Positions 3,236 through 31,732 of a stretch of 64,000 bases of DNA are shown one piece after another. A program made the position numbers and the translations under genes. The stretch's first letter is position 1. Each line of letters begins with the position of its first letter. A model generated the notes under the pieces. It was not told the DNA's origin and did not search any database. It saw only the letters and a program-made list of their open reading frames with translations. Source of the DNA: Streptomyces sp. cg36 (GTDB lineage Bacteria > Actinomycetota > Actinomycetes > Streptomycetales > Streptomycetaceae); NCBI RefSeq assembly GCF_041080675.1, contig NZ_CP163520.1:2480001-2544000 (forward strand), written 5' to 3'.

Positions 3236-3457
3236 ATGGACATTTAAGTCGGGTTGGGAGCGGAAGGTAATGATTGAACCAATTGAGGACCTTTGCGTCG
3301 TCGGGGACGCGCCGTGCCGGACAGCGGCCGGTTCGATGAATCACTCATGCAGTTCGATAGTTATTCACCATTTGAAAGGTGAGTGCTCTACCTCACCTAC
3401 GATTCACAGCTAAACTGTGGCGATATGTGGACGTTTATCCGAGTAAGGACTTTTGGC

Positions 3458-18506: not shown

Positions 18507-20549
18507 GTGAGATCCACGCACCGTCGTCGTGCCACCGCCACCGCCGCCCTGCTCTCCGCAGCCGCCATGCTCACCGTCGGAGTCCAGGCCGCCAGCGCCA
18601 GCGCACGCCCCGACGACTCCGCGTCCGCCAAGGCCCTCAAGGCCCAGGCCGTACGCAACCCGGGCGCCCTGCCCGCCAAGCTCTCGCCCTCACAGCGCGC
18701 CGAGCTGATACGCCAGGCCGACGGCAAGGCGGCCACCACCGCCAAGCAGCTGGGCCTGGGCGCGCAGGAGAAGCTCGTCGTCCGGGATGTGATCAAGGAT
18801 CAGAACGGCACCACCCACACCCGCTACGAGCGCACCTACGCCGGTCTGCCGGTCCTCGGCGGCGACCTCGTCGTCGACGCCTCGGCCGCCGGCGCCCCCC
18901 AGGGCGTCATCAAGGCGAACCGCGCCGAGCTGAAGAACATCGCCACCACCGCCAAGCAGGGCCCGGCCGGCGCGCAGAAGCAGGCCCTCGCCGCCGCCGC
19001 CGACAAGGGCGCCAAGAAGGCCACCGCCGACCGCGCCCCGCGCAAGGTCGTCTGGATGGCCAAGGGCACCCCGACCCTCGCGTACGAGACCGTCGTCGGC
19101 GGGCTCCAGGAGGACGGCACCCCGAACCAGCTGCACGTCATCACGGACGCCGCCACCGGCGCCAAGCTGTACCAGTGGCAGGGCATCGAGACCGGTGTCG
19201 GCAACACCCACTACAGCGGCCAGGTCACCCTCGGCACCACGCAGTCGGGCTCGAACTACACCCTGACCGACGGCGGGCGCGGCGGCCACAAGACGTACAA
19301 CCTGAACCACGGCTCGTCCGGCACCGGCAGCCTGTTCACCCAGACCAACGACACCTGGGGCGACGGCACCAACTCCAACGCCGCCACCGCGGGCGCCGAC
19401 GCCGCCTACGGCGCGGGCGAGACCTGGGACTTCTACAAGAACGTCTTCGGCCGCAGCGGCATCCGCGGCGACGGCGTCGGCGCGTACTCCCGGGTCCACT
19501 ACGGCAACGCGTACGTCAACGCGTTCTGGGACGACAGCTGCTTCTGCATGACGTACGGCGACGGCTCGGGCAACAACGACCCGCTGACCGCGCTGGACGT
19601 GGCCGGCCACGAGATGACGCACGGCGTCACCTCCAACACGGCGGGCCTGGAGTACAGCGGCGAGTCCGGCGGCCTCAACGAGGCGACCTCGGACATCTTC
19701 GGCACCGCGGTCGAGTTCTACGCCAACAACGCGTCGGACCCGGGCGACTACCTCATCGGCGAGAAGATCAACATCAATGGCGACGGCACCCCGCTGCGCT
19801 ACATGGACAAGCCGAGCAAGGACGGCGGCTCCGCCGACTCCTGGTACTCCGGCGTCGGCAACCTGGACGTCCACTACTCCTCCGGCCCGGCGAACCACTG
19901 GTTCTACCTGGCCTCCGAGGGCAGCGGCACCAAGGTCATCAACGGCGTGACCTACAACTCGCCGACCTCCGACGGCCTGCCGGTCACCGGCATCGGCCGC
20001 GACAAGGCCCAGCTGATCTGGTACAAGGCGCTGACCACCAAGTTCAACTCCAGCACCGACTACGCGGGCGCCCGCGCGGGCACCATCGCCGCGGCGACCG
20101 AGCTGTACGGTGCGGGCAGCGCCGAGGTCAACAACATCACCGACGCCTGGGCGGCCATCAACGTCGGCGCCCGCCACGGCGGCGGCGGCGACCCGGGCGG
20201 CAAGGTCTTCGACAACGACACCAACGTCAACATCCCGGACTCCCCGGGAGCGGCGGTCACCTCGTCGGTCAACGTCACCGGGATCACGGGCAACGCGCCG
20301 AGCGCCCTCAAGGTCGGTGTGAAGATCGTCCACACCTACATCGGCGACCTCCAGGTCGACCTGGTGGCCCCCGACGGCACGGTCTACCCGCTGAAGGCCA
20401 CGGGCACCGGCGGCTCGACCCACAACATCGACGCCACGTACACCGTGAACGCCTCCTCGGAGGTCGCCAACGGCACCTGGAAGCTGAAGGTCCAGGACAA
20501 GGCGCGGTACGACACGGGCTACATCGACGACTTCAAGCTCACGTTCTGA
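18507..20549 (+). CDS. Secreted thermolysin-like neutral metalloprotease (M4) with P-domain
   Basis: 680 residues from a GTG with AAGGAG 5 nt upstream. It is a prepro-enzyme: signal peptide (about 1-32), a FTP/PepSY-type propeptide (about 60-220), and an M4 catalytic domain with zinc motif H368-EMT-H372 and third ligand E392 in GGLNEATSD. A C-terminal proprotein-convertase P-domain starts at about 560 (GKVFDNDTNVNIPDSPG to the end). It is secreted and degrades extracellular protein, as expected for saprophytic growth or aerial mycelium formation. It is flanked by its own promoter region and a strong terminator. Confidence 0.96.
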   Translation: MRSTHRRRATATAALLSAAAMLTVGVQAASASARPDDSASAKALKAQAVRNPGALPAKLSPSQRAELIRQADGKAATTAKQLGLGAQEKLVVRDVIKDQNGTTHTRYERTYAGLPVLGGDLVVDASAAGAPQGVIKANRAELKNIATTAKQGPAGAQKQALAAAADKGAKKATADRAPRKVVWMAKGTPTLAYETVVGGLQEDGTPNQLHVITDAATGAKLYQWQGIETGVGNTHYSGQVTLGTTQSGSNYTLTDGGRGGHKTYNLNHGSSGTGSLFTQTNDTWGDGTNSNAATAGADAAYGAGETWDFYKNVFGRSGIRGDGVGAYSRVHYGNAYVNAFWDDSCFCMTYGDGSGNNDPLTALDVAGHEMTHGVTSNTAGLEYSGESGGLNEATSDIFGTAVEFYANNASDPGDYLIGEKININGDGTPLRYMDKPSKDGGSADSWYSGVGNLDVHYSSGPANHWFYLASEGSGTKVINGVTYNSPTSDGLPVTGIGRDKAQLIWYKALTTKFNSSTDYAGARAGTIAAATELYGAGSAEVNNITDAWAAINVGARHGGGGDPGGKVFDNDTNVNIPDSPGAAVTSSVNVTGITGNAPSALKVGVKIVHTYIGDLQVDLVAPDGTVYPLKATGTGGSTHNIDATYTVNASSEVANGTWKLKVQDKARYDTGYIDDFKLTF

Positions 20550-20642: not shown

Positions 20643-21002
20643 CTAGTCCCCGGCGGCCCGGGCGGCCGTCACGTAGTCCCGGAGCATCGCCTCGAACTCG
20701 TCCGCCGCGATGTCACAGTCCTCGAACTGCCCGTACAGGTCGGTCAGCCGCACGGTGCCGGCCGAGACGCGCTCGGCCCCGGCGCTCGCGGTGGAGAGGG
20801 TGAACCCCGACCCCCACCGCGCCGAGTCGGCGCGCCAGGCCGCCAGGTACGTCTCGGCGGCGCCCGCCGAGGCGATCCCCAGCAGGAGCGTCTCCACCGC
20901 CCGCCGCAGGTTCTCGTCCGCGGCGGGCTCCCTGGACGGGACCCAGTCCTCGTCCTCGTCCAGGGCGAACGTCCACACGGCCGGAGTGAGGGGCCGGCCC
21001 AT
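20643..21002 (-). CDS. Putative immunity protein for the Rhs-EndoU toxin
   Basis: 119 residues from the ATG at 21002, which overlaps the toxin stop by one base (TGATG); a GTG one codon earlier is also possible. It is small, soluble-looking and acidic (DEDEDW, EDCDIAADEFE), with no signal peptide or membrane segment. I do not recognise the family. Immunity function is inferred from the context: it is directly downstream of, and translationally coupled to, a polymorphic toxin whose C-terminal nuclease domain is Lys-rich. It would act in the cytoplasm by binding the EndoU domain. Confidence 0.65.
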   Translation of the reverse strand: MGRPLTPAVWTFALDEDEDWVPSREPAADENLRRAVETLLLGIASAGAAETYLAAWRADSARWGSGFTLSTASAGAERVSAGTVRLTDLYGQFEDCDIAADEFEAMLRDYVTAARAAGD

Positions 21003-24000
21003 CACTTGCCCTTCGGGAAGAAGGTCGAGGGCCGGTAGGTGCCGTCCTCCCCCTTCTCCAGGAAGCCCTGCATCTTCACTCCTCTGTGCGTGCCCGTCAC
21101 CCGGGTGTTGCCGTACTTGTACTTGCCGGAGCAGAACAGCTTGGCCCCGGCCTCCATGATGTCATCGGCCGTCCAGTCCTGCGGGAAGAAGGTCTGGCCC
21201 GCCGAGCCCTGTTTCTCCAGCTGGGTGCCGTCGTCGCGGATGGCGCCGACCTTGCCGTTGCCCTCTCCGTTGGCGCCGCGGACGGTCACGGAGCCGTCGG
21301 CGTTGGTGTGCATCTCGCCGTTGATGTAGCGGTTCGCCGGGATGCCGCCGGACTGCTTGGGGTGCAGGTGCCACCCGCCGAAGGCGCCCTTGTCGTTGAC
21401 GTCGCCGTTCAGGACGTGCCCCCGGGTCTTCGCCGAGATCGTGGCGTCCACGTTGGCCGGGGCGTTGCAGTTGTGGACGAGCAGCGACTCGTCGCCGACC
21501 GTGACGAAGTAGGTGTGCAGTCCGTCGACGGTCAGGTCGTAGGTGACGGTCGTGGCGCTGGAGAAGGCGCGGGTGTTCAGGACCTCGGCGGTGGCTCCGT
21601 CGAGGGTCTGGATCCGCTGGCCCGGGTGCAGGTCCTTCGCCCGCGTCCACGTCTTGGCGGTGGTCTCGTAGATCTGGTGCAGCGCCGTGGTGTGGAGCGG
21701 CTCGGGGCCCTCCTTGGTGGCGACGGTCAGGTCCACGAAGTCCCGGTCGTGCTTGGTCACATGGACCTCGGTGACCTTGTGGACCTCCTTCTTGTCCTTG
21801 CCCGGCTCGGCGGTCAGGACGAGGTCGCCGACCTTGACCTGGCTGATGGGCCGGGCGGCCCCGCCGGCGAGCACCACCGAGGTCTGCCCGCTGAAGCTGT
21901 GGCACCCGCCGCGGACCTTGCCGCCCACGGCACCGAAGATGCCGCCGAGCGCCGCGCCCGCCGCGGTCGCCTTGACGGCGCCGCTGACGCTGCACCCGTC
22001 CTCGCTGCCCGCACAGGTGGCCCCGTAGTAGGAGCCGCTCTCGGCCGCGCCGGCCGCGATGCCGGACGCCGCGCCGCGCGCCACCGCGCCCAGCGCGCTG
22101 CCCGCCAGGGCCCGGCCGACCGCCGCGCCCGCGCCCATGCCGATCAGGCCGGTGCCGGCGCCGATCGCCGCCGCGCCGAGGAAGCCGCCCAGGGTGTGGG
22201 GGCCGTCGCTCATCGCGTAGCCGACCGCGTTGGCCAGCGCTCCGGCGGCGGCGGCGCAGGCGACCGCGCCGACTCCGGCGGTCAGTGCGGTACAGGCGAC
22301 CGCGCCGGCGATGCCGACCACCATCGGCACGATGGTCGAGGCGTGCTGCTTGACGTAGTTGGCGGTCGCCTTCACCGCCTTCTTGACGGCTCTGCCGACC
22401 TTCTTGGCGGCCTTGACCACCTTGTGGGCGACGTGTTTGACCGCCTTGGCGACCCGCTTGACCGCGTGCTTGACGGCCTTGGCGACCTTGTGGACGTAGT
22501 GCTTGACCCGCTTGTACGTCCGCTTGACGTATCTCTTGACCTTCTTGACGGCGTCATGGACGTAGTGCACGGCCTTGCGGACCGCGTGCTTGATCCGGTG
22601 GACCGCCTTCTTGACGGCCTTCTTGATCTTCTTCGCTGCCTTCTTGACGGCCTTGGCGACGTGCTTGACGGCCTTCTTGGTCTTGTGCCAGGCCGACTTG
22701 GCGACGTGCTTGACCTTCTTCTTGAACTTCTTCCAGGCGCCGCCGAAGCTCCAGTGACCGGTGGGGTCGGTCATGGTCATCGGGTTGTCGTCGCCGTAGG
22801 CGAACCTGTTGGCGCCGATGGAGGCCGCGTCGTCCGAGACGTCCGCGGTGTCGCGGTCGCCGAACCGGCCGGTCTGCGGCGAGTACCAGCGCGCCGCCAT
22901 GTTGACCTTGGCGGTCTCCGGGTCGGTCCAGCCCGACTGGTAGCCCAGGCGGCCCAGCATGGTGCTGGACTGCTGGACCTTTCCGAACGGCGAGTAGGTG
23001 GTCGAGCCGCTGAGCGCCTCGCCGCCCGCCGTGAACTGGCCGATCACGTCGTCGTGGAGATCGGTCAGCACCAGCGCGGAGCTCGTGCCGTCCTTCACAC
23101 CGACCAGCGAGCTGTCGGCGTTGCGGCTGTAGGTCGCCGAACCGTCGGAGGCCACGTCGTTGCCGGTGCCGCTGTAGGCGAACCGGAACACCGCCACCAT
23201 GCCGGGGTCGTTGGCCGACAGGACCCGGTCCAGACCGTCGTAGGTGTAGGTCCGGTCGCCCTCGTTGATCACGCGGTTGAAGGCGTCCGACTTCATCGCG
23301 GTCTGCTTGCCCGCCTCGTCGGTGAGCGTGCTCATCGTGCCGCGGGCGGTGTAGGTGTAGCTGTTGTGCCCGTCCGAGGTGAGCTCGTTGCGGGCGTCGT
23401 AGGTGTACGTGTCGCCGCCCACGCGCGTCCGGTTGCCGGAGGCGTCGTAGCCGTAGCTCTCCGTCGCCGTCCCGTTGTTCCAGGAGGACAGGCGGTCGGC
23501 CCAGTCGTAGGTGTAGGTGTTGGCGGAGGCCCCGGCCACCCCGGTGGTGGTCTTCGACGTCTCGTTGCCGTTCGCGTCGTAGCCGTAGCTCACCGAGGCC
23601 AGCGTCTTGCCGGCCGGGGAGGTCAGGGTGTCCGACTTGAGCTGCTCCAGGGCGTCGTAGCCGAAGGCGCGCTTGGCCTTGCCGGTGCCGTAGTCGATCG
23701 ACTTGACGTTGCTGTTGACGTCGTAGCCGTAGGTCAGCGTGGAGCCGGTGGCGCCGTCGTTGACCGTGGAGAGACGGCCGTCGGTGTCGTAGCCGTAGGT
23801 CGACGTGCCCGCGGCGTCCGTCCGCGAGGTCATCCCGCCGTCGCCGTCGTAGGCGAAGGAGGAGGTGCCGGACGGGCCGGTGGTCGACAGCAGCTGACCG
23901 CGGTCGTCGTAGCCGAAGGTGTCCTTCCCGGTGTCGGAGTCGGTGCCGGTCACCGAGGTGATCCGGTCGTCCGGGTCATAGGTGTAGGTGTGGTCGGCGG

Positions 24001-27000
24001 TGGCGGCCTCGGCGCCGGTGCCGGTCTGCCGGGTGAGGCGGCCCTTCGCGTCGTACTCGCTGACGACCTTCACACCGCCCGGTGAACGCTGCTCGCGGAC
24101 CTGGCCGTTGGCGTCGTAGACCTGGGTGAAGGTGCGGTCGGCCGCGTCCGGGTGGGCCGGGGTGGCGGGCTCGATCGAGGACTCCTCCAGACCCCAGGAG
24201 TTGTACGTGGTCAGGAACGGGTTGCCCCGGCCGTCGGTGGTGCGGGTGCGGTGGCCGCCGATGTCGTACCCGAAGGTCGTGGTGATCGACTCGGTCGCGG
24301 AGACCGGCTGCACGGCCTTGGTGACCAGACCCGTGGGGTCCACCGTGAAGTTGGTGGTGTGCCCGCGGAAGTCGGTCGTCGAGACCGCGTTGCCCATCCG
24401 GTCGTAGGTCGCGCCGGTGGTGCGCAGCACCGCGCCGCCCGCGTCCAGGTCGCTGATGGAGGCCAGCTCGCCGTAGCCGTTGTAGGTGTTCCGGGTCGAG
24501 GTCCCGTCCGGGTCCGTGGACGTCAGCAGCTGCCCGTCCTGGTCGTACGTGAACCGCGTGGTGTTGCCGACCCCGTCCGTGGTGGAGGTGACCTCGCCGA
24601 GCGCGTTGTACCCGTAGGACTCGCTCACCCCGGCGGGGCTGACGTGCTGGGACAGCTGCTGCCCGGGCGCGTCGTAGGAGTTGATCGCCGTGTAGGCGCG
24701 CCGGGTGGGCTGGCGCACGATGTCCGTGCTGGTGAGCTCGCGGCCCAGGTAGTCGTAGGTCGACTCCTGGCGCGCCCCGTTGGGCCGGGTCGCCGAGAGC
24801 TGGTCGCCGTTGGTGTCGTAGGTGTACCTGGTGGTGTCGCCGCCCGGCTCCTTCACCGCGGCCAGATCGCCCAGCTGGGTGTAGGTGTACTCGGTGCGGT
24901 TGCCCAGCGCGTCGACCTCCGCGGAGACCTGGCCGAGGTGGTTGTACTCGTTCCAGGACACCGACTTGACCGGTGCCGGGGCGCCCGGCGCGGTGTAGTC
25001 GGGGAGCGTCGTGGACGCCTCCTGGCCCTCGCCGTCGTAGGCGGTCACCGTGACGTTGCCGAGCGGGTCCGAGGACTCGGTCTGCTCGCCGAAGGTGTTG
25101 TAGCCGGTGAGCGAGACCGGGCGGACCGACGAGGGGGTGCCGCCGTTCTGCTCGGCGTTCACGGCCGGCTCGGTCACGCTGGTCTGCTGGCCCGACTCGT
25201 CGTAGCCGTAGTCCGTCGTGTTGCCGTTGGCGTCGGTCACCGCGAGCGGCATGCCGCGCTGGTCCAGCTTCCAGCTGGTGGTGCGCACCGAACTGCCCGC
25301 GGCGGGCAGCGTCTTGCCGTAGACGCCCGAGACCTGGGTCGCGGTGAGCGCCTCGCCGTAGACCTGGACGTCGGCGAGGGAACCCTTGTGGAACTCGCCC
25401 TGCGTGCCGCCCGACATGCGGCGGCCGATCTGGAGCGGGCCGGTGGCCTCCCAGGAGCCGCTGTAGGGGGTGGTCGCCTTGAGCGCGCCGTTGACGTACA
25501 GCCGGATCTCCCCGGCCGCCGCGTCGTAGACACCGGTCAGATGCGTCCAGGTGTTGGCCGTCACCGCCGCCGTGCCGGAGGTGGCACGGGCCAGGGTCGG
25601 GTTGGCCTGGTCGCCGGAGGTGCGGTTGAAGGACCAGCCGTACGCCGTCGAGTAGTACAGCTGGAAGCCGTGGTCGGCCTTGCCGTCCTGCGAGACGAAC
25701 GTGTGGTTGGCGGTGGTGTCGGCCAGCTTCACCCAGGTGGAGACGGTGAAGCCGCCGTTGGTGTTGACCGCGGGGCCGGCGCCCTGGCCGTAGGCGTTCG
25801 CGGTGCCGTCGAAGACCGCGCTGCCGCCCTGCTCGGTGGAGCGGGTCACGCCGGAGCCGAAGGTGACCTTGTTGTTGCCGCCGGAGGAGTCCGCCGCGTT
25901 GGTCCCGCTGGTCTCGTTCAGCTTCCAGCGGCCGATGGGGGCGGTGGTGCCGTCGTGGACGGTGTTGCCGGTGACGTTGCCGAGCGCGTCGTAGCGCGTG
26001 TCGGTGGTGCTGGTGTCGCCGGTGGGGTCGTAGTCCGTCTCGGAGACGACGTTGTCGTCCGGGTCGTAGGAGACCTTGTTGGTCCGGGCGAGGCCGCCCG
26101 GGTCCATGGTGGTCGACGTGGTGCGGTCGGCGGCGTCCACCGTGAACGAGGTGGTCGTGGTGCCGTCGTTGGTGACCTGCTTGACCAGGTTCCCGGCCGC
26201 GTCATAGGTGTTCGCCTGCTCGGTGAACGCCTTGCCGTTCTGCGGGTCGCTGCGCACCACCGTGGCCGAGAGGCCGTCGTCGGTGTAGGTGTACGCGGTG
26301 ACCCAGCCCATGGCGTCGGTGATCGACGCGAGCCGCCCCGCCGGGTCGTACGCCCGCGACTCCTGCACCAGCTTCGTCGGGGACGACGGGCTGTTGGGGT
26401 CGCCGGTGTAGTTGAGCAGGCTCGTGGTGAGCGGCTTGCCCTCGGCGTCGAAGGTGTACTCGTTGACGTTCCCGACCGGGTCCGTCTCCTTGACCTTGTT
26501 GCCGTAGACGTCGTACTCGAACGCCGTGACGTCGCCGCCCGGATCCGTCCGGGTGGCGACCCGGTTGTACGCGTCGTACGTCATCGCGGTCGTCCGGGAG
26601 GCGTCACCGCCCGAGGCGTCCGCGACCGTCTGGGACTGGACGTTGCCGTCCGGGTCGTAGACGGTCGTCGACTTCGCCTGGTGGACGGCGCCGGTGACCC
26701 GGTTGGTGACCTTGGGGCTGAGCTCCGAGACGACCTGGTCGTCCTTGTCGTAGCCGAGCGTGGTCGTCAGACCCGCCGGATAGGAGTCGGAGACCTCGGT
26801 CCTGGTGACCTGGCGGCCCAGGTTGTCGTACGTGTACTTCACCGAGGCGCCGTTGGCGTCGGTGGCCTGCGCCAGGTCGCCGTTCTTGAAGTAGGTGTAC
26901 GAGGTGGTGCGCCCGCCGGGCGTGCGCACCGAGGCGACGAGTCCGGCCGGGGCGTAATTGGTGCCGCCCTCGGCCGCGACCGTGGTCGCGGTGGTGTACG

Positions 27001-30000
27001 CCGTGGTGGCGGTACGGCCCGCCGGTGAGCCCGGCACCGGCGGCGTGGTCACCGAAGTGACGTTTCCTCCGGTGTCATAGGTGTAGCTGGTGAGATAGGT
27101 GTTGTCGGTGGGCCCGGAGGAACGGCCGTCGCGCTCGGTGAGCATCAGGTCGTTGCGCGGGTCCATCGCCGGGAACAGCGTGGTCGCGTCCGGGTAGTAC
27201 GTGTAGTACTCGGTGGCGCAGACGTTGGCCGCGGTGTTCTGGCAGGTGGTCGTGGAGACCGTGTTGCCGCGCACGTCGTGGCCGGTCACCGAGCGGTTGC
27301 CGTTGGCGTCCGTCACCGTGTGCAGGAAGCCCGAGGTGTCGTAGCCGTAGGTGGCGCGCTGCCCGTTGGTGTCGACCGCCGCGAGCAGGCGGTTGCCGAG
27401 CTCCGCGTCGTAGACGTAGGTGAGCGTCTTGTCGGTCGGGTCGGTCAGCTTGACCGTGCGGACCGGGGCGGTGCCGGTGGCGGACCTGCCGGCCGAGTAG
27501 TGCCGGGCCACGTCCGCGTCGGTCAGGGCGCCCGCGTGGAAGGCGACCTCGGCGATCGAGCCGTCGAAGTGGCTCGCGTCGGAGGGCGCGCTGAACCAGC
27601 CCTTGGCGAAGCCGCCGCCGATGAAGGTGCGGCCGGTCGCCTGGGTGCCGGGGGCGCCGGTGAAGTCGGCCTGCTTGGCCCCGTCCAGGTACAGCGTCTG
27701 GGTGGTGCCGGAGGCCGTGAGGACCGCGTGGTGCCAGGCGTTGTCGGTCACCGTGGGCGTCGAGCCGAAGTCCTTGGCGCCGTCGGAGCCGGAGCTCCAC
27801 CAGTGGCCGCGCAGCTTGCCGTCGGCCCCGACGTAGAGCAGCGGCGCGTAGGCGCCGCCGACACCGGCCGGGTCGTCGGGGTCACGGGCCTGGTCGGCCG
27901 CGATCACGCCCGGCTTGGCGGTGCGGAACCACAGCTCGACCGCCCGGTTGCCGGAGCGGTGCAGGGGCGCGTAGGGCAGCTCGGCGTAGGAGGCCGCGCC
28001 GTCGAAGTCGACGGCGGTGCTGTCGTCCGGGCCGAACGGTCCCTCGGCGCCCTGGGTCGCCGAGTTGTACGTGCCGAAGCCGGTGTTGACCTCGTTGGCG
28101 GCCTGCGGCGCGCCCTGGGTGTCGCCGAGCCGCCAGTATCCGGCGGGGGCGTCGCCCATCACGGCCGAGCGGTAGACCTGCGAGGAGCCGGTGACGGTGG
28201 CCGGGTTGAGCTTCCAGGTGCCGCCGTCGCCGTCCACGGCCTGGGTGACCATGTCGTCGGCGGTGGAGTAGGTGACGGAGCTCTGGACCTTGCCGTTCGG
28301 CGTGGTGATCTTGTTGAGCAGTCCGGCGGGACGGGTCGCGGCCCGGTACTGGGCGGTGATGACGTCCTGGGCGAGCGGCTCGGAGTAGATCGCCGCCTCG
28401 GCGAGCTGGCCGCTGAAGTGGCCGAGCGGGTCGGCCGCGTTCATGTTCGGCCAGCCGTCGGTGTTCACCCCGGCGCCGAGCGTCAGACAGGGCTGGGCCC
28501 AGTCGTTGATGGTGCCGGTCTTGCTGCCCTGGAGCGTGCCGTCCAGATAGAGCGACATGGTGGTGGCGGCGCCGGTGAGGACGGCCTGGTGCCACTTGTT
28601 GTCGTTGACGGCGGCGGTGGAGGCGATCGTGGTGTTGCAGCCGGGCGAGGAGGCGAAGCAGCCGTGCAGCTTGCCGTCGGTGCCGACGTAGACCGCGGGG
28701 GTGTTGTGGGTGGTGGTGCCCACCGGGTCGGGGTCGCTCAGCGGCTTGTCGCCGTAGTAGAAGAGGACACCGCCCGCCTGCGCGGTCTTGAACCACAGCG
28801 ACACCGAGGCGTACGAGGGGGTCGCGCCCGGCGCGCTGGGTATCTCCACGTAGCTGCTGGTGCCGTTGAACGACGCCGTGGGCTGGGTGGATCCGGCCAG
28901 CACGCTCGCGCCGCCGGTGGTCACGTTGTGGTAGATGCCGTTGTACTTGCCCTGGTTGAGGTCGACGGCGTCCTTGGCGACGCCCTCCCCGGCCGCCTCA
29001 CCGAGCCGCCAGTACGCGAACGGGTCCTCGTCCAGGACCGTGGTGCGGTAGTGGTTGCCGGTGGCGTAGCCGTAGCCGGTGCACTTGGTCCAGTCGGCGG
29101 GCGGGCAGACCTTGGTGAGCTGGTCACCGGTGTAGTCGTACTGCCAGGTCTGCGCGGTGTTCGCGTCCTTCGGGTCGGACGGGTCGGTGGCGACCGTGGC
29201 GACGTGTGCGGCGCTCGCCCCGGCGGGCGTCTGCCAGGCGAGGGTCAGCGAACGCCCCGAGGTGGTGTTCGTGATCTTCGTCAGCTGGTTGCCGGTGTAG
29301 GCGAAGGTCTCGGTGCGGCCCGCGAAGTCCTTGATGGACGAGATCGCGTAGACACCGGCCTTCCCGGTCGGCTGGGTGAAGGTGTAGGTGGTGAAGTCCT
29401 TGTCGACCAGCGTGTATCCGCCGCTGACCGCCTGGAAGCGGGCGTAGCGGCCGAGCGGCGGGACGAAGGTGCCGTCGCTGTTGCGGCCGTAGGCGACCTG
29501 CTCGCCGCCCGGGTAGGTGATGACGACGTTGCTGAGGGCGCCGGTGCCGTCCTTGACCTCGGCGGCCTTCATGTCCGCGATGGTCGCCCAGCCCGCGCCG
29601 AACGCGCCGTCCTGGCGCGGGTCGAGGCTGTTGTAGGAGCGCTCGATGGAGAGCGAGGGCCCGCTGACCTGGACGTCCGCGTCGGTGTCGTCGGTGGTGT
29701 AGTTGCCGTCGCTGGGGTCGAACTCATGGCCGTCGGTGTTCTGGGTCAGCCCCGAGGTCACCGGCGGCTGCGGCACCGCGGTGGTGAACCGGCTGTCGTA
29801 GGAGACCGAGTTGGTCCCGTCGCTGACCGTCGCGAACCAGAGGTAGTTCCGGCTCCACTTCAGCTTCCCGGCCGGGACCTGCCAGGCACCCTTGGTGAGC
29901 GCGCCGGAGCTGACCACCGCGGTCTGGCTGGTGGAGTCGGCGTCGAAGACGTCGAAGGCGTACGAGAGCGGGCTCGGCCCGTGGTCGGCGTCGCTCGCGT

Positions 30001-31732
30001 ACACCGTGAGCTCCGGGCTCAGGGTGTTGGCCTGGAAGTTCTCCGGCGGGTACTGGGCGTTGACCTGCGGGGCCGCGTTGGCGGTGTAGGTGAGGTCGAG
30101 CGCCGGGCGGAAGCCCGCGGTGGTGGAGTTGTCCGAGTGGAACTTCTTCCAGTGCAGCATGTCGCTGGTGATCGCGGTCATCGCGAGGCCGTAGTTGGCA
30201 CCGCCGCCCGCGACACCGTTGAACCAGCTGGTGTTCAGCGGCACCGGCATCTTCACGCCGACACCCGTGGAGCTGGAGGAGTTGGAGCAGGACGCGCCGG
30301 GCGCCACGGTCGCCGAACCGATGGCCGCGCCGTAGGACGGGCCGGGGTAGCCGGTGACCGTGGAGGGCGTCCACGCCTTGGTGACCGGGTGGACGTTGAA
30401 CGGCTCGGGGGTGCAGGTCGAGGACCAGATCGCGTAGACGTTCAGGGTCGCGGCGGTGACCTTCTGGCCCGCCAGCGTGGTGCCCAGCGAGGAGAACTGG
30501 AGGAACGAGTTCGCCTTGTTGGCGCCCGAGTCGTAGGACCCCACCTTGATCATGTTCTCGGTGGAGTGGTCCCCGCCGATCGTGTTCTGGGTGTACGTCG
30601 AGTTGCCGGCCGCCACCGTCGGGTCGACCGTGACCGGGAAGACCCGCTTCGGGTCGTCCAGCCAGGTGCGGTCGGCGGTCATCCGCAGCGCGGGCGCGCC
30701 GTTCGCGGTGGTGAGCTCATAGGTGACCGCCCGCGACTGGGCGGCGTCGCCCGAGCGCGGGTCGATCTTCGAGTCCTCCATGAAGGCGTGCGGGACCGTC
30801 GCCGCCACCTTGCCGTCGGCGCCGGTGAGCACCACGTCGCCGTCGGCCCCGATCGCGGGCGTGAGGCCCTTGGCCTTCAGCGGGAAGAGCCAGGAGTTCG
30901 GCGCGTCCTTGGACTTGAGGACGATCCGCTCCTTGAAGCCCTCGGCCAGCGGCGACAGCTTGAGGTCGGTGTCCTTCAGGACGTCCGGGTAGGTGGCGGT
31001 GGAGTCGCCGTCGACCACCGGCTCGCTCCTGGCGGCGCCGCTCAGCCCGTACGCCAGCGAACGCCCGGAGCCGAAGTCGACCGAGGCGAGGTCGGGGGTG
31101 GCCGCGTCGGGCGCGAAGGTCACCGCGAGCGAGTTGGCGTTCTCGACCAGCTCGCCGCCCTTCTCCTCGCGCAGCCTGGTGTCGATCGGCTTCCAGCTGC
31201 CGTCGGCCGCCTTGAAGTTGCTGCGGCCGGTGTAGTGGCGCACGGTCGTGGAGCCGTCGGCGTTGGTGAAGAAGTCCGAGGTGGCATTGGACTTCTTGGC
31301 GTCCCGCCTGCTGGTGCGGGCGTCGAAGCTCTTGGCGTTCCCGGCGGCCTTGCCGGTCTTCGCCGGCTTCGCCCGGTCCTCGGGTCTCTCGTACGCGCCG
31401 AGTTCGCCCTTGCCCCTGCCGGGTCGGCGGCCGTTGCCGCCCTTGGCCCGGGTCTGCTGGGCGGAGGCACTGTGGCTCTTGCCGCGCGCGGTGCCGCTCT
31501 GCTGGTCGGGGGTGTCCAGCGGGGACTTGTTCGCCCACTCCCACAGCCCCGCCGGCGACCACTTGGGCATGGACAGCCGGGGCAGTGTGGCGCCGGTCGC
31601 CTCCGCCGTCTCCGTGGTCAGCATGAAGGAGAAACACAGCAGGACCAGGAGGGCGGTTCTCCTGGCCCTGCGGCGCCCGGTCCGACCGGGTGGGAACAGC
31701 AGACGGGACGTTCGTGCCCATCGAAAACGCAT
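21002..31732 (-). CDS. Giant secreted Rhs polymorphic toxin with Hint and EndoU-type RNase tip
   Basis: 3576 residues; ATG with AAAGG upstream. In order: basic signal peptide (about 1-46); a CBM96/DNRLRE-like domain (about 375-555); a DUF6531-like Rhs entry (about 660-720); a long Rhs/YD-repeat shell (YDxxGN, YTYDAxGR units) interrupted by three LamG-like lectin folds (about 900-1135, 1187-1410, 1928-2144). The Rhs core ends with NPMTMTDPTGHW near 2990. A Lys/His-rich tract (about 2998-3130) and a Gly/Ala-rich hydrophobic stretch (about 3130-3270) follow. A Hint self-cleavage domain runs from C3277 to VHNC (C3422). The last 154 residues match bacterial EndoU nucleases (RGHVLNGD, GGWHLHP, TFFPQDW, GVKMQGFL), a family that cuts tRNA or other RNA. 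It is coupled to an immunity gene. The delivery route is not visible. Confidence 0.9.
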   Translation of the reverse strand: MRFRWARTSRLLFPPGRTGRRRARRTALLVLLCFSFMLTTETAEATGATLPRLSMPKWSPAGLWEWANKSPLDTPDQQSGTARGKSHSASAQQTRAKGGNGRRPGRGKGELGAYERPEDRAKPAKTGKAAGNAKSFDARTSRRDAKKSNATSDFFTNADGSTTVRHYTGRSNFKAADGSWKPIDTRLREEKGGELVENANSLAVTFAPDAATPDLASVDFGSGRSLAYGLSGAARSEPVVDGDSTATYPDVLKDTDLKLSPLAEGFKERIVLKSKDAPNSWLFPLKAKGLTPAIGADGDVVLTGADGKVAATVPHAFMEDSKIDPRSGDAAQSRAVTYELTTANGAPALRMTADRTWLDDPKRVFPVTVDPTVAAGNSTYTQNTIGGDHSTENMIKVGSYDSGANKANSFLQFSSLGTTLAGQKVTAATLNVYAIWSSTCTPEPFNVHPVTKAWTPSTVTGYPGPSYGAAIGSATVAPGASCSNSSSSTGVGVKMPVPLNTSWFNGVAGGGANYGLAMTAITSDMLHWKKFHSDNSTTAGFRPALDLTYTANAAPQVNAQYPPENFQANTLSPELTVYASDADHGPSPLSYAFDVFDADSTSQTAVVSSGALTKGAWQVPAGKLKWSRNYLWFATVSDGTNSVSYDSRFTTAVPQPPVTSGLTQNTDGHEFDPSDGNYTTDDTDADVQVSGPSLSIERSYNSLDPRQDGAFGAGWATIADMKAAEVKDGTGALSNVVITYPGGEQVAYGRNSDGTFVPPLGRYARFQAVSGGYTLVDKDFTTYTFTQPTGKAGVYAISSIKDFAGRTETFAYTGNQLTKITNTTSGRSLTLAWQTPAGASAAHVATVATDPSDPKDANTAQTWQYDYTGDQLTKVCPPADWTKCTGYGYATGNHYRTTVLDEDPFAYWRLGEAAGEGVAKDAVDLNQGKYNGIYHNVTTGGASVLAGSTQPTASFNGTSSYVEIPSAPGATPSYASVSLWFKTAQAGGVLFYYGDKPLSDPDPVGTTTHNTPAVYVGTDGKLHGCFASSPGCNTTIASTAAVNDNKWHQAVLTGAATTMSLYLDGTLQGSKTGTINDWAQPCLTLGAGVNTDGWPNMNAADPLGHFSGQLAEAAIYSEPLAQDVITAQYRAATRPAGLLNKITTPNGKVQSSVTYSTADDMVTQAVDGDGGTWKLNPATVTGSSQVYRSAVMGDAPAGYWRLGDTQGAPQAANEVNTGFGTYNSATQGAEGPFGPDDSTAVDFDGAASYAELPYAPLHRSGNRAVELWFRTAKPGVIAADQARDPDDPAGVGGAYAPLLYVGADGKLRGHWWSSGSDGAKDFGSTPTVTDNAWHHAVLTASGTTQTLYLDGAKQADFTGAPGTQATGRTFIGGGFAKGWFSAPSDASHFDGSIAEVAFHAGALTDADVARHYSAGRSATGTAPVRTVKLTDPTDKTLTYVYDAELGNRLLAAVDTNGQRATYGYDTSGFLHTVTDANGNRSVTGHDVRGNTVSTTTCQNTAANVCATEYYTYYPDATTLFPAMDPRNDLMLTERDGRSSGPTDNTYLTSYTYDTGGNVTSVTTPPVPGSPAGRTATTAYTTATTVAAEGGTNYAPAGLVASVRTPGGRTTSYTYFKNGDLAQATDANGASVKYTYDNLGRQVTRTEVSDSYPAGLTTTLGYDKDDQVVSELSPKVTNRVTGAVHQAKSTTVYDPDGNVQSQTVADASGGDASRTTAMTYDAYNRVATRTDPGGDVTAFEYDVYGNKVKETDPVGNVNEYTFDAEGKPLTTSLLNYTGDPNSPSSPTKLVQESRAYDPAGRLASITDAMGWVTAYTYTDDGLSATVVRSDPQNGKAFTEQANTYDAAGNLVKQVTNDGTTTTSFTVDAADRTTSTTMDPGGLARTNKVSYDPDDNVVSETDYDPTGDTSTTDTRYDALGNVTGNTVHDGTTAPIGRWKLNETSGTNAADSSGGNNKVTFGSGVTRSTEQGGSAVFDGTANAYGQGAGPAVNTNGGFTVSTWVKLADTTANHTFVSQDGKADHGFQLYYSTAYGWSFNRTSGDQANPTLARATSGTAAVTANTWTHLTGVYDAAAGEIRLYVNGALKATTPYSGSWEATGPLQIGRRMSGGTQGEFHKGSLADVQVYGEALTATQVSGVYGKTLPAAGSSVRTTSWKLDQRGMPLAVTDANGNTTDYGYDESGQQTSVTEPAVNAEQNGGTPSSVRPVSLTGYNTFGEQTESSDPLGNVTVTAYDGEGQEASTTLPDYTAPGAPAPVKSVSWNEYNHLGQVSAEVDALGNRTEYTYTQLGDLAAVKEPGGDTTRYTYDTNGDQLSATRPNGARQESTYDYLGRELTSTDIVRQPTRRAYTAINSYDAPGQQLSQHVSPAGVSESYGYNALGEVTSTTDGVGNTTRFTYDQDGQLLTSTDPDGTSTRNTYNGYGELASISDLDAGGAVLRTTGATYDRMGNAVSTTDFRGHTTNFTVDPTGLVTKAVQPVSATESITTTFGYDIGGHRTRTTDGRGNPFLTTYNSWGLEESSIEPATPAHPDAADRTFTQVYDANGQVREQRSPGGVKVVSEYDAKGRLTRQTGTGAEAATADHTYTYDPDDRITSVTGTDSDTGKDTFGYDDRGQLLSTTGPSGTSSFAYDGDGGMTSRTDAAGTSTYGYDTDGRLSTVNDGATGSTLTYGYDVNSNVKSIDYGTGKAKRAFGYDALEQLKSDTLTSPAGKTLASVSYGYDANGNETSKTTTGVAGASANTYTYDWADRLSSWNNGTATESYGYDASGNRTRVGGDTYTYDARNELTSDGHNSYTYTARGTMSTLTDEAGKQTAMKSDAFNRVINEGDRTYTYDGLDRVLSANDPGMVAVFRFAYSGTGNDVASDGSATYSRNADSSLVGVKDGTSSALVLTDLHDDVIGQFTAGGEALSGSTTYSPFGKVQQSSTMLGRLGYQSGWTDPETAKVNMAARWYSPQTGRFGDRDTADVSDDAASIGANRFAYGDDNPMTMTDPTGHWSFGGAWKKFKKKVKHVAKSAWHKTKKAVKHVAKAVKKAAKKIKKAVKKAVHRIKHAVRKAVHYVHDAVKKVKRYVKRTYKRVKHYVHKVAKAVKHAVKRVAKAVKHVAHKVVKAAKKVGRAVKKAVKATANYVKQHASTIVPMVVGIAGAVACTALTAGVGAVACAAAAGALANAVGYAMSDGPHTLGGFLGAAAIGAGTGLIGMGAGAAVGRALAGSALGAVARGAASGIAAGAAESGSYYGATCAGSEDGCSVSGAVKATAAGAALGGIFGAVGGKVRGGCHSFSGQTSVVLAGGAARPISQVKVGDLVLTAEPGKDKKEVHKVTEVHVTKHDRDFVDLTVATKEGPEPLHTTALHQIYETTAKTWTRAKDLHPGQRIQTLDGATAEVLNTRAFSSATTVTYDLTVDGLHTYFVTVGDESLLVHNCNAPANVDATISAKTRGHVLNGDVNDKGAFGGWHLHPKQSGGIPANRYINGEMHTNADGSVTVRGANGEGNGKVGAIRDDGTQLEKQGSAGQTFFPQDWTADDIMEAGAKLFCSGKYKYGNTRVTGTHRGVKMQGFLEKGEDGTYRPSTFFPKGK

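Follow-up and report, generated by a model that had tools for sequence, protein, structure and literature searches.

A probable Rhs-Hint-EndoU polymorphic toxin with a putative new immunity family in Streptomyces sp. cg36

A stretch of 64,000 nucleotides from Streptomyces sp. cg36 (contig NZ_CP163520.1, positions 2,480,001 to 2,544,000), here called the window, carries on its minus strand a very long Rhs protein gene and, directly behind it, a small gene (window positions 20643–31732). We read this locus as a polymorphic toxin of the Rhs/WapA type together with the immunity gene that belongs to it, with a probability of about 0.82. Judged by its linkage, the 119-residue product of the small gene most likely represents a new immunity family, one directed against a toxin of known kind.

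The toxin is encoded by a minus-strand open reading frame with an ATG start (positions 21002–31732) and comprises 3576 amino acids. Its basic and then hydrophobic N-terminus resembles a Sec signal peptide by hydropathy (residues 1–45, Arg-rich, hydrophobic at 27–45; positions 31598–31732) and is followed by a DNRLRE domain (residues 389–548, positions 30089–30568; NF033679, expect value (E) 3.3e-18, above the cut-off). Pfam and NCBIfam profiles then place DUF6531 and RHS/YD repeats with three laminin-G-like stretches, closed by an Rhs-associated core (residues 672–2993, positions 22754–29719); the repeats matched PF05593 with E 5.9e-78 and the core TIGR03696 with E 2.1e-14, over the cut-off. 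Seven Rhs-associated cores are found in the whole genome. Behind the core lie a Lys/His-rich amphipathic stretch, predicted to be helical and built on an 11-residue (33-bp) repeat (residues 3000–3133, positions 22334–22735), a Gly/Ala-rich hydrophobic stretch with two membrane-like segments (residues 3134–3272, positions 21917–22333), a predicted Hint-type self-cleavage domain marked by motif residues (C3277 to HNC 3420–3422, positions 21467–21904) and the predicted EndoU ribonuclease (RNase) tip (residues 3423–3576, positions 21005–21466).

The EndoU profile PF14436 covers residues 3434–3573 with E 4.9e-15 and 56.5 bits against a cut-off of 25.3. This was the single match in the 9.02-Mb genome, and none of 14 control genomes gave one. 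In an alignment of eight tips, of which seven are 27–92% identical to that of the window, fifteen columns were invariant, among them H3439, H3455, T3514 and T3570 (8/8 tips); the cut-short tips of genomes G325 and G311 and the tips of a plasmid and of G1010 were omitted from it. The published EndoU signature consists of H, H, [SNT] and [SNT] (PMC3482391). The profile score is well above the cut-off and the invariant residues fit this signature, so RNase is the likely activity of the tip. The earlier note on this DNA had described a complete weapon, namely a 3576-residue Rhs protein ending in Hint and a 154-residue EndoU domain. Its Rhs and EndoU parts stand, and Hint less cleanly by profile, the frame and EndoU being borne out by the open reading frame and by a profile score above the cut-off with all four signature residues; the strand, the laminin-G-like inserts, the DNRLRE domain and the Lys/His-rich stretch went unmentioned, and complete applies to the anatomy only.

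The small gene (positions 20643–21002, minus strand) starts with an ATG at 21002, its stop ending at 20643, and is joined to the toxin in a TGATG, where the toxin stop (TGA) and the small-gene start (ATG) share one A (1-nt overlap). Its product of 119 amino acids is acidic (net charge −11, isoelectric point 4.25) and contains a 'DLYGQF' motif. No family in Pfam, NCBIfam or PADLOC matched the window protein. For 14 members of its own family only sporadic matches were obtained, none to an immunity family: five Pfam families at E ≤ 1 (best E 0.082) and two NCBIfam families (best E 0.0056). A single-sequence search of 5.8 billion proteins returned 16 clusters, its own included, and a 14-row profile returned 26 among the 7996 scored candidates, those sharing most words, from the same 5.8 billion. 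The named clusters belong to Streptomyces, Kitasatospora and Allostreptomyces, and one relative adjacent to a tip (G1010) comes from another family of the same order. The antidote family is rare, being present in 3 of 295 genomes of the genus (one weak) and in 3 of 396 across the phylum (one weak). A structure model from 24 rows, with a mean predicted local distance difference test score (pLDDT) of 92.9, consists of two strands, two helices, four strands and a C-terminal helix; no PDB chain matched it at E ≤ 0.001. The available portions of PMC3482391, PMC9990079 and PMC12700104 do not describe the family, which is a weak absence as the literature covered was mostly open-access.

The association of small gene and tip recurs in other species. 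A tip search of 394 genomes of the bacterial family gave matches in 18, from which the eight genomes with E ≤ 1e-10, plus one plasmid, were taken as tip-first loci. An antidote-family gene stands beside the tip in six of these eight genomes, and in seven of the nine loci when the Streptomyces anulatus plasmid is included. This plasmid was the sole one among 72,556 plasmid records found by tip or antidote query, and its antidote member was detected by plain tblastn at 4e-15. Relative to the window tip, the tip of S. melanogenes is 92% identical and that of the plasmid about 60%. An antidote profile of 14 close members, collected without using tips, picked up each of the seven distant members that stand beside a tip (E 1.9e-26 to 1.1e-5) and rejected all 17 control frames, of which 16 lie behind other EndoU tips and one behind the cut-short tip of G311; the homology of the antidotes is therefore independent of their linkage. 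Immunity-first searches, with the weak matches G286 and G929 left out of the count, met the tip at three loci (the window, Streptomyces melanogenes and G1010). In G236, the 50 nt in front of a toxin-less antidote gene match the 'ADDIMEAGAKLF' part of the tip at 40 positions, a fit equalled by 0 of 500 shuffles; from this scar, the toxin appears to have been lost and the antidote retained.

Tip and antidote also co-vary. Ten such pairs were met with; across eight of them, leaving out G325 and G1010, tip and antidote distances correlated with a Mantel r of 0.847 (0 of 10,000 permutations), and without S. melanogenes with 0.832 (4 of 10,000); the antidote was the more diverged partner in 26 of 28 pairwise comparisons. 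The earlier note's proposal of a TGATG-coupled acidic protein of no recognised family, possibly a new immunity family, is thus supported by the overlap and charge, the empty profile searches, the linkage in 7/9 tip-first loci, the co-variation (r 0.85, eight pairs) and the G236 scar.

Several points weigh against the toxin-antidote reading. Two of the nine tip-first loci have no small gene (G321, and G311, where the tip is cut short), and G325 has the small gene and only the C-terminal half of the tip. Four immunity-first copies (G236, Streptomyces hilarionis, G095 and G1011) lack a tip in the stretch read. The ten genomes with weaker tip matches include a single one with an antidote gene within the 1.5 kb read (G413), and its resemblance is weak taken alone (blastp E 0.05, profile 1.1e-5). 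Part of the co-variation of the eight pairs is due to the shared ancestry of a linked cassette, and it therefore supports linkage more than binding. The structure prediction of the tip, made from two rows, reached a pLDDT of 39.6 and is unusable for the fold. Profile support for the Hint domain is weak as well, with PF01079 below its cut-off (20.7 vs 29.7); NCBIfam intein_Cterm scored above its own (19.0 vs 15.6, residues 3397–3422). Hint and intein domains are marked by an N-terminal Cys and a C-terminal His-Asn-Cys, and the corresponding residues are present (C3277 and HNC 3420–3422). The end of a Hint domain precedes the EndoU tip in the window, S. melanogenes, G340, G407 and the plasmid. 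Release by Hint appears to be optional for this tip, because in G472 only the beginning of Hint precedes it and in G308 and G1010 it follows the Rhs core directly.

Further observations were made around these loci. The S. anulatus plasmid (NZ_CP109519.1, locus L061) is linear, 327 kb long and mobilizable; its Hint-EndoU toxin end and antidote lie near the plasmid end, a transposase gene is located within a few kb, and the annotated gene covers only part of the antidote frame. The antidote relatives of G095 (L059/L067) and G1011 (L102) are distant, have no EndoU tip in the stretch read and adjoin genes that look transporter-like by eye; they are possibly orphan immunity genes or a reused fold. 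Elsewhere in the genus, other subclasses of EndoU tip have their own small frames behind them, of at least four kinds (85–89, 138–145, 142–145 and 146 amino acids; loci L007–L011, L013, L014, L016, L018, L020, L022–L024, L026 and L050), tip and antidote classes having been sorted by eye, and these frames are candidates for further immunity families. Seven of the ten weaker tip-match genomes contain frames of at least 7229 codons. At L012, L021, L133 and L134 (G232, G133 and G023; also G141 and G504), giant frames measure between 7981 and 19630 codons, and each contains one or several EndoU matches. The one at L012 includes, by eye, a HEIGHLIGLRDEY-type zinc-protease stretch, and that of G133 has a 4899-residue piece without a Pfam match, followed by 1600 residues with one EndoU.

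The body of the toxin occurs with other tips. Its seven best relatives from the Lys helix to Hint (55–73% identity per piece, frames of 3475–3898 amino acids) all have tips and downstream frames other than those of the window, two of them sharing one tip type in a grouping made by eye, and the antidote profile found no match among them within the stretch examined. Tips are exchanged on related bodies, as in Rhs polymorphic toxins.

The Lys/His-rich stretch is part of this body. Residues 2995–3140 include 42 Lys, 7 Arg, 13 His and one acidic residue. A 110-residue part has a mean helical moment of 2.12 (0.73 ± 0.12 in shuffles), and the moment exceeded all 200 shuffles in 12/12 loci examined; in some relatives, His largely takes the place of Lys and the amphipathic face is kept. 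From this periodicity, the stretch is predicted to be a helix. Among 241 window frames of at least 110 amino acids, the toxin frame alone passed when charge and moment were tested together; read on the opposite strand, this DNA gives a frame with a moment of 1.91 that fails on charge. The DNA contains 33-bp and 66-bp tandem units, among others. Among 22 loci from 18 of 199 genomes, 19 had an 11-residue period stronger than in any of 300 shuffles; in the remaining three, 3, 13 and 194 of the 300 shuffles reached it. Choosing the loci by similarity to the module guarantees a basic segment, but neither the 11-residue period nor the helical moment follows from that choice. The 22 loci have 20 readable tips in about 13 clusters, an approximate number since one five-member cluster is partly joined by a 23–37-residue linker and the automatic cut after Hint failed in two loci and fell inside Hint in one (G168a). 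Because these roughly 13 tip clusters occur behind the module, it belongs to the body and not to the tip. The genome encodes another Rhs protein (frame of 3655 amino acids; G000:C1:4725344-4726351) that combines Hint, and a Lys/His stretch related to this one, with another tip; the latter is 91% identical to one in G168.

What this module does can be proposed only tentatively. The Lys/His repeat and the Gly/Ala hydrophobic stretch might form a so far undescribed module for membrane entry in Rhs toxins of Streptomyces, in which a long cationic amphipathic helix, resembling the lipid-binding repeats of apolipoproteins except for its all-basic polar face, docks on the polyanionic envelope of a Gram-positive target and carries any tip across the membrane; we hold this to be possible, with the odds somewhat against it. 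A Pfam similarity to ApoLp-III (E 3.1e-4, below the cut-off and one among many weak matches) hints at most at a helix that faces lipid. No Lys-rich or amphipathic module in Rhs toxins was found in the literature, a weak absence given its mostly open-access coverage, and the words amphipathic and lysine-rich occur 0 times in the available text of PMC3482391. Envelope anchoring and nucleic-acid binding are alternatives.

Taken together, the toxin would be exported by Sec and displayed by the Rhs shell with its laminin-G-like inserts. The Lys/His and hydrophobic stretches may aid entry of the C-terminal part into the target cell. Cleavage by Hint at N3421/C3422 would free the EndoU RNase, and RNA of the target would be degraded. 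In the cytoplasm of the producer, the acidic 119-residue protein may block the basic tip (isoelectric points 4.25 vs 9.0), probably by covering its RNA groove.

Other explanations of the locus are less convincing. That the 119-residue protein serves as a secretion or folding chaperone of the toxin C-terminus instead of an antidote is very unlikely. The toxin might also be aimed at non-bacterial cells such as fungi or soil eukaryotes, as laminin-G-like inserts could bind many surfaces and EndoU RNases could act on any RNA; this is unlikely, since the antidote is dedicated to the toxin and varies along with it, and related species have antidote copies without a toxin, both of which point to warfare between close relatives. 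The locus could finally be silent, its sequence intact and its product not made or exported. Antidote genes do persist without a toxin in G236 and S. hilarionis, but 3576 codons without a stop, the preserved signature residues and the intact tip-antidote pair in S. melanogenes make silence very improbable here. The preferred reading is still a toxin with its cognate immunity gene.

Next to the antidote lies a convergent gene for an M4 (thermolysin-type) metalloprotease with a P-domain (positions 18507–20549). In S. melanogenes, a convergent frame of 679 codons is found at a similar place (L006:6447-8486).

Compared with known systems, the weapon is of a familiar kind, and its putative new antidote family is well supported by linkage and co-variation. 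EndoU toxins with PF14436, such as CdiA-CT STECO31 and MafB of the contact-dependent inhibition (CDI) and Maf systems (PMC9990079), share this profile with the window tip; here, in contrast, EndoU sits on an actinomycete Rhs-Hint protein, and the antidote matches no catalogued immunity family. Imm28, SUKH and SuFu immunity families have been reported with EndoU toxins (PMC3482391), and the five Pfam families hit by the 14 antidote members at E ≤ 1 include none of them. In YxiD-YxxD of Bacillus subtilis, a BECR-fold RNase tip meets an immunity protein of about 110 amino acids, whose acidic residues contact basic toxin residues and which blocks the substrate site (PMC12700104). The likeness to the window locus lies in an RNase tip, here a predicted one, assigned to the wider BECR fold, and in a small immunity protein with acidic residues, whereas YxiD is an LXG toxin with predicted type VII export and another tip. 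YxxD was absent among the sequence and structure matches listed for the window antidote, and a shared fold is still compatible with this. The antidote would thus represent a new immunity family, unseen by the profile libraries used, against a widespread class of RNase toxins, and its confident fold model serves as a basis for a complex structure.

There is likewise a close likeness to the WapA/Rhs toxins of B. subtilis and Streptococcus suis. WapA of S. suis has a Sec signal, a DUF6531-Rhs shell, exchangeable C-terminal toxins and adjacent immunity genes, and how its C-termini get into recipient cells has been called enigmatic (PMC12704120). A Sec-like signal, the shell, swappable tips and an adjacent, putative immunity gene recur with the window toxin; unlike WapA, this toxin has EndoU behind Hint, laminin-G-like inserts and a Lys/His stretch of 11-residue repeats. 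The unexplained delivery module may be the more interesting part, as it could make the question of WapA-type entry testable, and since it is common to bodies with many tips, one test would inform the whole class of Streptomyces toxins.
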